Assembly: GCA_900318035.1 (NCBI GenBank)
Contig: ONJC01000010.1
Span: forward strand, 1-64,000
Reading direction: 5' to 3'
DNA from: an uncultured Methanobrevibacter sp.
Lineage (GTDB): Archaea; Methanobacteriota; Methanobacteria; Methanobacteriales; Methanobacteriaceae
DNA: 64,000 nt
Notes under the pieces: model-generated
The model's database searches: none
What the model was told of the DNA's origin: nothing
What the model saw: the letters and a program-made list of their open reading frames with translations, nothing else
Position numbers and translations under genes: made by a program
Shown: in pieces, positions 7,373 through 46,622 of the stretch
Numbering within the stretch: the first letter of the stretch is position 1
Layout: every line of letters starts with the position of its first letter

Positions 7373-7690
7373 CTATTCATTATCAATTTGTTTTCTAATA
7401 TCAATATATTCTTCTATGTTTTTAATTAATCTATCGCCAGGATAATAATATGTTTTTTTCTCGAATTTTTCCCTGGTCATGTACCTGTGGCTGCAGATAA
7501 TATCTAAATGGTATGTGATTGTTTTATAATCTAATTTCAACCGTTTAGATAATTGATTTGCATTACACGGTTTAATCAATATTTCATCGATTATTTTCAT
7601 TCTTGTTCTTCCGCCGTCACTGCCCATTAACATGGAATACAGTTCTTTGTCTTTAATATTTATAATTTGAAGGTTATATGATAATTTCAT
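7373..7690 (-). CDS. Small winged-helix DNA-binding protein (ArsR-like)
   Basis: 105 aa. A winged helix-turn-helix is visible: GGRTRMKIIDEILIKPCNANQLSKRL, recognition helix LDYKTITYHLDII, then a wing (EKFEKKTYYYPGD). Such small ArsR-like proteins regulate transcription by binding DNA as dimers. No cysteine metal site is apparent. It is the third gene of a regulator operon; its ATG shares a base with the stop of the gene above it, so it is translationally coupled. Target unknown. Confidence 0.75.
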   Translation of the reverse strand: MKLSYNLQIINIKDKELYSMLMGSDGGRTRMKIIDEILIKPCNANQLSKRLKLDYKTITYHLDIICSHRYMTREKFEKKTYYYPGDRLIKNIEEYIDIRKQIDNE

Positions 7691-8490
7691 TACTTGACCT
7701 CAAATTTTTTTATTATATTATTCGCCCATTTTAGGGCATTTTCGTCTTTTCCAATTAAAATTTGGGAATCATCATAATGTCCGTCTTTAAAAAATAAAGT
7801 GAGGGACATGAATTTTTCAGAACATGTTAAAAATATTTTCAAATTATCTTCAGTAATTTTAATGATTACTTTTTCGTTTTCTAGTAATTCCTGTTTGAAT
7901 AACTCATTTTCACAAATGGAGTCATAAATTTCTTCACTAATGATTAATCTTAATTCATCAATTTTTTCATTGTTTAAAAGATCAATCATATGTTTGAAAT
8001 GATTTTCTGAGTATATCGGCATGATAATCTGTAATTTTCGTGCATTTGAAATTAATTTTATGTATTTATTGAATGCAATAGATAAATCGCTTGTTGTTGA
8101 GTTCACGTATTCTGCGTCTTTTAGAAGATAAATACTTTTAATAATTTCATCTGGAATGTCAGATAAATCATGATTATCCCAAAAAGCCTCATTTTTGCTT
8201 AAAGCGAACCAATTCTCAATCAATTTGACCATATTTGTAGTCAATAAATACCCATTTGAAGTTAATTCATAGTATTTTTGAGCTTTTCTAACCAAATTAA
8301 TCGATTCTAGTTCTTTAAGCCCATGTAAAATGGTTGCTGAAGGCTTTTTCAATTCGCTTCGGAGTTCATCCAAATTTTTTGGAATTCTATATAATGCTAA
8401 AAGTAATTTAGCACGCATGCTGGACGTCAAAATATATTTGACGTCTTTAAATTCTTTGTTGAGTTCCTTTTTGGTTTGTATGTTGGTCAT
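7690..8490 (-). CDS. Winged-helix transcriptional regulator (FilR1-type sensor domain likely)
   Basis: 266 aa. N-terminal wHTH (about 15-85: LTSSMRAKLLLALYRIPKNL, KKPSATILHGLKELESINLV). The C-terminal half (about 95-266) resembles the archaeal regulator domain once called DUF1724 (FilR1/methanogenesis regulatory), ending LFFKDGHYDDSQILIG and ALKWANNII. It is a paralog of the next gene: both end with a fluorine-like core of FxxDGxxDxxxILI followed by W-A-N. An N-terminal GGGTGA ribosome binding site lies inside the upstream gene's end, and the two overlap by 4 bases. The ligand is not predictable. Confidence 0.78.
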   Translation of the reverse strand: MTNIQTKKELNKEFKDVKYILTSSMRAKLLLALYRIPKNLDELRSELKKPSATILHGLKELESINLVRKAQKYYELTSNGYLLTTNMVKLIENWFALSKNEAFWDNHDLSDIPDEIIKSIYLLKDAEYVNSTTSDLSIAFNKYIKLISNARKLQIIMPIYSENHFKHMIDLLNNEKIDELRLIISEEIYDSICENELFKQELLENEKVIIKITEDNLKIFLTCSEKFMSLTLFFKDGHYDDSQILIGKDENALKWANNIIKKFEVK

Positions 8491-9278
8491 TTTATCACCC
8501 TGTGTTTTACGTGTTTAAATAATTCGTTGGCCCATTCATGTGATTTTTTGTCATCTGAAATCAGGATTCTATTCTGGTCAAAACTTCCGTCATTTTTAAA
8601 GAGTCCTAAACTCATTTTTTCATCACATACTGTAAGATATAAATCCAAATCATCTGTAACTGTGTAGACAATTAATCTTTCGCCGTTAATAGCATCTTTT
8701 TTTAATTTATCATCGATTGGGGAGATTATTGCTTTAAATATGGTTCTTGGGACAATTAGTTCAACAGTTCCACCATTCTGCAATATTGTTTCGATTAACT
8801 GTGGGTATTCCGGATGCAAATATGGAAAAATGGCTTTCACATCTTTTGATTCAATCAGTTGGTTTTTAGTGGTATTGTGTGTTTTGTATATGTCTAGGGG
8901 TGTTGTTTCGATTAGTTTTGAATCTTTCAGAGCGGTAATGTTTTTCATGGAATCAATGCTTAATTGAGTTATGTTGTGTTTGTTCCAAAATGCGCCATAA
9001 TCATTAATTATGTCTACGCTTTTTTTGAAATCCATCAACGCTTTGAAATATATTTCTGCCATTGGATTAACGTAATATTTCTTTTCGACTTTTCTGATAA
9101 ATTCATTTTCCTCTAACTTATTTACATTGCTTGAAACGGAACTGTATGTGATTTGTGTCTTTTTTACAAGTCCGCTGATATTGTTTGGCTGTTCATAGAG
9201 TTCACTTAGAATTTTTAATCGGATTTCGGACTGTGCAAGGAATCTGATCTCTTCATTTATTTCGCTATGATTATGCAT
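8487..9278 (-). CDS. Winged-helix transcriptional regulator, paralog, first gene of operon
   Basis: 263 aa. N-terminal wHTH (LAQSEIRLKILSELYEQPNN, QITYSSVSSNVNKLEENEFI) and a C-terminal sensor domain like that of the downstream paralog (SLGLFKNDGSFDQNRILISD, HEWANELFKH). A GGAG ribosome binding site lies just upstream of the ATG. The gene heads a three-gene regulator operon. Directly upstream are a TATA-like element and a striking array of ten short motifs, which may be where one or more of these regulators bind. Autoregulation is inferred from position alone. Confidence 0.78.
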   Translation of the reverse strand: MHNHSEINEEIRFLAQSEIRLKILSELYEQPNNISGLVKKTQITYSSVSSNVNKLEENEFIRKVEKKYYVNPMAEIYFKALMDFKKSVDIINDYGAFWNKHNITQLSIDSMKNITALKDSKLIETTPLDIYKTHNTTKNQLIESKDVKAIFPYLHPEYPQLIETILQNGGTVELIVPRTIFKAIISPIDDKLKKDAINGERLIVYTVTDDLDLYLTVCDEKMSLGLFKNDGSFDQNRILISDDKKSHEWANELFKHVKHRVIK

Positions 9279-9359
9279 TTTTTTCTCTCCTTTTTTTTAG
9301 TTATGAAAAATTCTTTAAATTCTCAATGAATTTTTCTGCAATATCACTTCTTCATATCT

Positions 9360-9376
9360 AAATTTAAATAAATTTT
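9360..9376 (-). promoter_or_regulatory. TATA-like promoter of the regulator operon
   Basis: On the minus strand the segment reads AATTTATTTAAATTTAG, about 85-95 bp upstream of the regulator ATG at 9278. It lies immediately downstream (in transcription direction) of the phased motif array, where an upstream activating or repressing site would be expected. Confidence 0.45.
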
Positions 9377-9480
9377 TCCAAACTTCTCCCAGTTTTCTCC
9401 AAATTTTATTCTAAGCTTTTTCCAATTCTTTTCCAATTCTTTTCCAAAGTTCTCCCAAGTCTCTCCCAACTATTTTCCAA
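9370..9480. repeat. Array of ten CCAA-type motifs phased at about 11 bp
   Basis: CCA (or a variant) recurs at 9378, 9389, 9399, 9411 (as CTA), 9422, 9433, 9444, 9455, 9466 and 9477. Spacings are 11, 10, 12 and then 11 bp throughout. Each unit is pyrimidine-rich before CCAA: TTTTCCAA or TCTCCCAA on the plus strand (TTGGGAGA or TTGGAAAA on the minus strand). One turn of DNA separates units, so all face the same side of the helix. It sits between the divergent regulator operon and nob1. Confidence 0.85.
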
Positions 9481-9494
9481 TCAAATTTCACTTT

Positions 9495-9530
9495 TTGGTC
9501 AATATTTCACAATGTTGTAAATATTGCCAA
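9495..9530. promoter_or_regulatory. Imperfect palindrome upstream of the nob1 TATA box
   Basis: Left arm TTGGTCAATATTTCACAA (9495-9512) and right arm TTGTAAATATTGCCAA (9515-9530) are inverted repeats apart from two extra bases in the left arm. A TATA-like ATTTATTAG follows at 9532-9540, about 25-30 bp before the nob1 ATG. This suggests an operator abutting the promoter and a leaderless nob1 transcript. Confidence 0.6.
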
Positions 9531-9563
9531 GATTTATTAGTTTTCATTGTGAATATATTAATC

Positions 9564-10070
9564 ATGGAAATTTGTTATGTGTTGGATGCATCAGCATTCA
9601 TTAACGGATTTGAGATTTCTTCAAAAAGGAATTTCACTGTTCCTGAAATCACTGAAGAAATTAAGGATTTCGAATCACGTCTGAAACTTGATGCGGCAAT
9701 TGACCAGGGATTATTAGTAATACAAGATGTAGCATCACAGTATTTATTTTGTGTACATGATATTATTTATGAAAGTGGTGATATTTTAAGATTGTCATTT
9801 CCGGACAAGAAATTGATTGCTTTAGCCTATATGTTATCTCAAAGGGGAGAGCATGTAAAAGTCATTACTGATGATTACACTATTCAAAATACTTTAAAAA
9901 TAATGGATATTGATTATTCTGGTGTAATAACTGAGGGAATTAAAGGAATTTACAATTGGAAGAAAATATGCGAAGGTTGTAAAAAGGAATATCCTGAAGA
10001 CTATAAATTTGATGACTGTGAGATATGTGGATCTAAAATTTTTAAAAAAAGAATCAAGGTGAACAAATGA
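9564..10070 (+). CDS. nob1: NOB1-type PIN-domain rRNA endonuclease
   Basis: 168 aa from the ATG at 9564. An in-frame TTG at 9495 would add 23 residues but lies inside a palindrome upstream of the TATA box and is rejected. PIN domain: YVLDASAFINGF at the N-terminus, then acidic residues (TEEIKDFE, and SFPDKKLIALAYMLSQ, KVITDDYTIQNTL) that would bind Mg2+. A C-terminal zinc ribbon has CEGC and CEIC pairs. NOB1 cuts the 3' end of pre-16S rRNA in small-subunit maturation. The stop overlaps the next ATG (ATGA), so it is coupled to the DUF2117 gene. Confidence 0.88.
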   Translation: MEICYVLDASAFINGFEISSKRNFTVPEITEEIKDFESRLKLDAAIDQGLLVIQDVASQYLFCVHDIIYESGDILRLSFPDKKLIALAYMLSQRGEHVKVITDDYTIQNTLKIMDIDYSGVITEGIKGIYNWKKICEGCKKEYPEDYKFDDCEICGSKIFKKRIKVNK

Positions 10071-46438: not shown

Positions 46439-46622
46439 AGTTTTCACCAAATTAATATTGTATTTTTTTCTATATTAATATTACTATTTCATAAAAAAGT
46501 ATTACTATATATTTTTTTCTCGTTTTTTTGTCCTTTTTTTCCATTAAATTTATAAATGGTGTTGTAGATAATCTATATTAGTTAAAATAATAGAGTGATT
46601 AATAAATAATAAGGGTGAAAAC

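Follow-up and report, generated by a model that had tools for sequence, protein, structure and literature searches.

Described archaeal operators mostly consist of one or a few sites, which are often palindromic. Direct-repeat operators are known from some bacterial systems. PhoP of M. tuberculosis and PhoP of Streptomyces, winged-helix proteins of the OmpR/PhoB type, bind cooperatively to direct repeats of a 7-bp motif with a 4-bp spacer (PMC4832192), and the operator repeats of CarH, a bacterial regulator of the MerR family, are a further analogy (PMC9304148). In archaea, TrmBL2, a chromatin protein of the TrmB family in Thermococcales, coats DNA as cooperative filaments (PMC4877046), and FilR1 of Methanosaeta harundinacea attaches to the promoter of its own gene both in vivo and in vitro (PMC3991700). 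Here we describe an array of 11-bp direct repeats in front of three winged-helix genes of Methanobrevibacter, found in a window of 64,000 nucleotides (the whole stretch of DNA that was analysed).

The array at the regulator promoter

The features of the locus are collected in Table 1. The sequence-only reading had listed ten CCAA-type motifs and placed them just upstream of the TATA box of three winged-helix genes. All ten positions were correct, the array indeed adjoins the TATA box on its upstream side, and the three downstream genes are all of the winged-helix type. Eight motifs are exact CCAA (9378, 9399, 9422, 9433, 9444, 9455, 9466 and 9477), and the two inexact ones are CCAG (9389) and CTAA (9411). 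The nine steps between them are 11, 10, 12, 11, 11, 11, 11, 11 and 11 bp; the consecutive 10-bp and 12-bp steps cancel, so that the overall 11-bp phase is kept. Read in the operon direction (minus strand), the unit consensus is TTTGGAAnAAn, and the units are TTTGGAAAAAT (the TATA-proximal one), ACTGGGAGAAG, ATTTGGAGAAA and so forth. The proximal unit, which is the last before the TATA box, runs straight into it and thus covers the BRE position.

Table 1. Features of the regulator locus (window coordinates).
Feature	Position	Strand	Description
Gene 3	7373..7690	-	Small ArsR-like protein of 105 aa with a winged helix only; its HTH evolves fast and diverges along with the unit
Gene 2	7690..8490	-	266 aa; the other winged-helix regulator with FilR1_middle; KPSATILHGL as recognition helix
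Gene 1	8487..9278	-	263 aa; FilR1_middle domain and winged helix (HVO_A0261_N/ArsR-like); predicted fold resembles TrmBL2
Operon TATA box TATTTAAA	9363..9370	-	Directly after the last unit; conserved in orthologues
TATA-proximal unit TTTGGAAAAAT	9372..9382	-	Overlaps the BRE position
Ten-unit tandem array	9372..9481	-	Units ~11 bp apart; proposed operator, ending on the BRE/TATA of the three-gene winged-helix operon
nob1-like PIN-domain ribonuclease gene	9564..10070	+	Divergent; conserved neighbour, array persists without adjacency

Over 100 bp, the self-identity of the array was 0.70 at a lag of 11, with 0.49 at lag 10 and 0.47 at lag 12, and the value at lag 11 was equalled nowhere else in the window. 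A three-unit pattern with up to 3 mismatches matched the window seven times (0 expected), all of them overlapping matches within the array, and a search of the window's genome with this pattern gave no match besides the array. The second 11-bp repeat found by TRF (46512-46541) was rejected as merely a T-rich stretch. An RNA element was also ruled out, since Rfam gave no match to a structured RNA or riboswitch in 9200-9700 and the array lies upstream of the TATA box.

The operon and its neighbourhood

Genes 1 and 2 matched the FilR1_middle domain (PF08350) with 91.2 and 67.1 bits, respectively (Pfam cut-off of 27). The HVO_A0261_N score was 35.9 bits for gene 1 (cut-off of 35) and 30.3 bits, below the cut-off, for gene 2. 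None of genes 1 to 3 matched the TrmB domain PF01978 at E 1e-3. The predicted structure of gene 1, which was of moderate quality (pLDDT of 77, pTM of 0.58), contained the winged helix. Its best match in the PDB was TrmBL2 (E of 8e-10, whole-chain TM of 0.43) with a large rmsd that is taken to reflect domain orientation, and phospholipase-D-type proteins were matched more weakly.

The gene order pyrE, moaB, gene 3, gene 2, gene 1, nob1 and DUF2117 is kept through most of the genus. The recognition helices of genes 1 and 3 vary, whereas that of gene 2 (KPSATILHGLKELE) is nearly invariant genus-wide, which suggests that gene 2 may have other, conserved targets. On the nob1 side, an imperfect inverted repeat (CAATATTTCACAATGTTGTAAATATTG) at 9500-9526, which separates the array from the start of nob1, is a possible nob1 operator. 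In many orthologues (e.g., L010, L019 and L044), a conserved stretch resembling AACTAATAAATCTTGGC adjoins nob1, between this gene and the array, and is probably the nob1 core promoter on the other strand.

Conservation and occurrence of the array

Upstream regions of orthologues were drawn from genomes of the same genus and from a named collection; most of the named loci belong to Methanobrevibacter sp., including M. thaueri, M. millerae and M. olleyae. Loci present twice through two collections were collapsed by promoter sequence before counting, and most of the genomes are drafts. Conservation in relatives, on which the sequence-only reading had staked its proposal, was clear: among lags of 6 to 16, 11 scored best for 54 of the 58 distinct promoters of Methanobrevibacter orthologues, and the median z compared to shuffles was 6.2. 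In a first promoter set with dinucleotide shuffles, lag 11 was the best in 58 of 62. A chain fit gave 6 to 18 units per clear array, with 411 of 416 unit steps at exactly 11 bp, a model-based figure because the fit penalises slips. Despite differing unit sequences, 57 of 59 orthologous promoters had the proximal unit at the same distance from the TATA box, to within 2 nt.

The array is kept across the genus at gene 1 identities down to about 47%. Two loci with genes 1 and 2 had no clear array (L029 and L079), one had two units only (L168), and three had short arrays (L017, L025 and L082). A tie to nob1 was ruled out: the array accompanies gene 1 even without nob1 next to it, and is intact where nob1 is ~2 kb away or was not found (L074, L072 and L078).

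Pattern searches, which are blind to arrays of an unrelated unit, found one such array per genome; in G014, for example, the pattern for its own unit matched at this locus only. Other promoters of the genome had been suggested as places to look for the unit, and in the window's genome these searches located no further array. Two-unit sites elsewhere in that genome were no commoner than matches to a reversed control pattern, and a regulon of such sites was therefore ruled out. Furthermore, no 11-bp array was found upstream of the FilR1 paralogues sampled in the same genomes or of the homologues sampled in other genera. A separate array of 168 bp, with ~17.6 ten-bp units of the TTTTTGG type, was observed between two FilR1-domain genes in another genus (G070, L137:2581-2748). 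It differs from the Methanobrevibacter array in place and period, and is perhaps an independent array for a second FilR1-domain gene.

Concerted change of the units

The unit varies across lineages (TTTGGAAnAA, TTTTGAAnAG, TATTGAACAA and TTTCATRGAA), and the units are alike along each array. TTTGGAAnAAn is the commonest form; TTTTGAAnAGn was found in L014, TATTGAACAAA in L019, TTTCATRGAAn in L035 and L078, TATTCAAAGAA in L030, and TTTAAGGGAAG in L076. Within an array, particular letters other than A/T are preserved (GG, or TCA..GA). The identity between units of one array was 0.62 to 0.67. At 75-90% gene 1 identity, same-position units of two species had an identity of 0.71, compared to 0.66 for units within an array, as expected from descent. 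At 40-55% gene 1 identity, the value for same-position units (0.435) had fallen to that for different-position units (0.433), whereas units within an array still showed 0.67. Likeness thus maintained along each array while positional likeness is lost indicates that the arrays undergo concerted evolution, as judged from the unit sequences. Clean indels of 11 or 22 bp separate close relatives in pairwise alignments (L022/L061, L044/L011 and L049/L077), and such whole-unit indels offer a mechanism for it.

The unit distance was compared with the HTH distance of each protein beyond that of the FilR1 domains. The partial r was 0.44 for gene 3, 0.30 for gene 1 and 0.28 for gene 2 (0.37, 0.22 and 0.28, respectively, among TTGG-type arrays alone). 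The correlation is significant for all three genes and hence singles out no binder. In addition, the TTGG/TTCA change of the unit amounts to about two events on the tree, so the covariation with helix residues is confounded with ancestry and residue-level inference is weak. The S-to-N change in the recognition helix of gene 1 also occurs with TTGG-type units (L016 and L057). Gene presence gives a further indication. One draft genome (L080/G033) has kept the array with gene 3 absent at the locus and only weak gene 3 matches elsewhere in the genome, and another genome (G008/L029) has neither the array nor gene 3. On the evidence as a whole, gene 1 is the leading candidate binder and gene 3 the second candidate. 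At L069 / L029 (G008), nob1 lies 1.9 kb away, and this genome, with no gene 3 and no clear array, provides a natural case for comparing operon expression.

Curvature and helical phase

Curvature was predicted using a wedge model with the dinucleotide parameters of Bolshoy et al. 1991, for which phased A-tract controls served as the only check. The median predicted curvature was 0.079 for the arrays and 0.069 for column-permuted arrays. The window array reached 0.093 against a permuted mean of 0.081, and 31% of the permutations were as high; across arrays, a median share of 0.32 of the column-permuted versions had equal or greater curvature (0.31 for the window array). A phased T-tract bend, which the sequence-only reading had offered as an alternative, therefore fails as a conserved property, with most species, including the window's, showing no greater predicted curvature than the permuted-column controls.

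Free B-DNA has ~10.5 bp per turn. The idea that regulators line up along one DNA face holds approximately but not strictly, because a strict 11-bp step exceeds this turn and, if the DNA is not unwound by the protein, the register would slip by about half a turn over ten units. The longer step suggests that it is set by protein contacts.

Proposed mechanism

We think that the array is probably an autoregulatory operator. The winged-helix protein or proteins of the operon would assemble on it in a head-to-tail row that reaches the BRE, and would most likely repress transcription of their own genes. The word differs between species yet is alike along each row, as would suit a self-regulation switch that the proteins of the operon read themselves. 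A cooperative operator had been one of the readings first put forward, and the genus-wide conservation, the fixed BRE/TATA phase, the coordinated change of the units and the conserved link with the regulator operon all argue for it at the sequence level.

Binding by the operon's product, its cooperativity, the sign of the regulation and the signal are all parts that we infer, as follows. An operon-encoded winged-helix protein (that of gene 1, with that of gene 3 as a possible partner or substitute) would read one 11-bp unit per DNA-binding domain, every unit in the same orientation, and protein-protein contacts between neighbours would impose the strict 11-bp step. The proteins would form a head-to-tail row of about 70-200 bp, ending at the unit that overlaps the BRE. 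Once the row is filled, the last subunit would compete with TFB for the BRE and the operon would be switched off, and a signal sensed via the FilR1 (PLD-like) domain would release the repression. With so many cooperative sites the response would be steep and buffered, and gain and loss of whole units would keep the row uniform. If the array is read only by the product of its own operon, the recognition surface and the unit can drift together. More tentatively, TrmBL2-like regulators may build a filament that is directed by the sequence and reaches the BRE, and regulator and array may co-evolve as a private code in which each species has its own word; this would be a new class of archaeal regulatory element.

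Alternative explanations

The same row of regulators could act as a positive element, drawing TBP or TFB to the promoter and thereby activating the operon (positive autoregulation), a reading that we regard as doubtful but worth serious consideration. For TrmB-family regulators, sites upstream of the BRE/TATA usually mean activation, which opposes the repression part of our proposal, and TrmBL1/Tgr, Ptr2 and TFB-RF1 activate from upstream sites (PMC4158304). The array is wholly upstream of the TATA box and abuts the BRE in nearly every species. However, its last unit, which overlaps the BRE, has features of both elements, as competition between the two proteins would predict, and a single upstream site would be enough for recruitment. 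Because the last unit doubles as the BRE, repression by blocking TFB is preferred. It is unlikely that the operon is controlled through the array by a regulator encoded elsewhere in the genome, although such a regulator would suit the two cases of an array without gene 3 or of genes without an array. A global regulator would hold the unit constant, whereas the array, single in each genome by the pattern searches, stays with gene 1 and drifts in sequence between species, which suits a dedicated reader encoded alongside.

AT-rich units about one turn apart might form a bent or histone-positioning segment of phased A/T tracts that no sequence-specific regulator reads, and a minority of seven lineages (L013, L023, L026, L027, L032, L064 and L066) were well above their permuted controls in predicted curvature. 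The permuted-column result for most arrays, the step of 11 rather than 10-10.5, and the preservation of the non-A/T letters within arrays make this very unlikely. Slippage or unequal exchange does occur, as the whole-unit indels in close relatives show, but a neutral minisatellite in which replication slippage expands a functionless 11-bp unit is highly improbable for an array that is kept at one promoter across such gene 1 divergence, nearly always in the same TATA phase, and was not found at other loci by pattern searches. Plasmid partition sites combine tandem repeats with autoregulation, and a single array per genome, upstream of genes for DNA-binding proteins, would fit a role in partition or anchoring, as for parC or tubC, in which the operon would supply the adaptor protein. 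We nevertheless give this the least credence of all, since the conserved neighbourhood holds no ParM/TubZ-like motor gene, nor any cytomotive or NTPase gene beside the putative adaptor gene (the neighbours being pyrE, moaB, nob1 and DUF2117), and L029, L079 and L168 live without a clear array.

Comparison with known systems

The sequence-only reading knew of no described archaeal array of this kind, and a search of the accessible literature likewise found none. For common gut and rumen methanogens, direct repeats at a strict 11-bp step that are anchored to the BRE and shared genus-wide would amount to a promoter architecture of a new type. Across the species, units drift but stay uniform in each array, and this series allows the joint change of a regulator and a many-site operator to be tested on dozens of natural variants. 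If the private-code filament exists, these would form a natural series of orthogonal archaeal regulator-operator pairs.

FilR1 shares with genes 1 and 2 the FilR1_middle domain and an ArsR-like winged helix. However, it is a two-component target, and a repeat array is not described in PMC3991700. TrmBL2, the best fold match, resembles gene 1 in combining a winged helix with a PLD-like domain. Unlike the system proposed here, it coats DNA without a strict sequence requirement; the likeness of gene 1 is in fold only, with no Pfam TrmB match, and no operator array for TrmBL2 was described in the literature searched. CarH differs in its MerR-type fold, its role as a B12 photoreceptor, its fewer repeats and its bacterial promoter. 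PhoP-type operators usually have two units instead of 6-18 and serve bacterial response regulators, and we know of no array-wide drift of the unit between species for operators of the OmpR/PhoB type. They nevertheless share with the array the 11-bp step on direct repeats. Like operators of the PhoP/CarH kind, the array consists of several direct repeats with an 11-bp step at a promoter, and by this analogy a cognate regulator would be its putative cooperative, head-to-tail binder.
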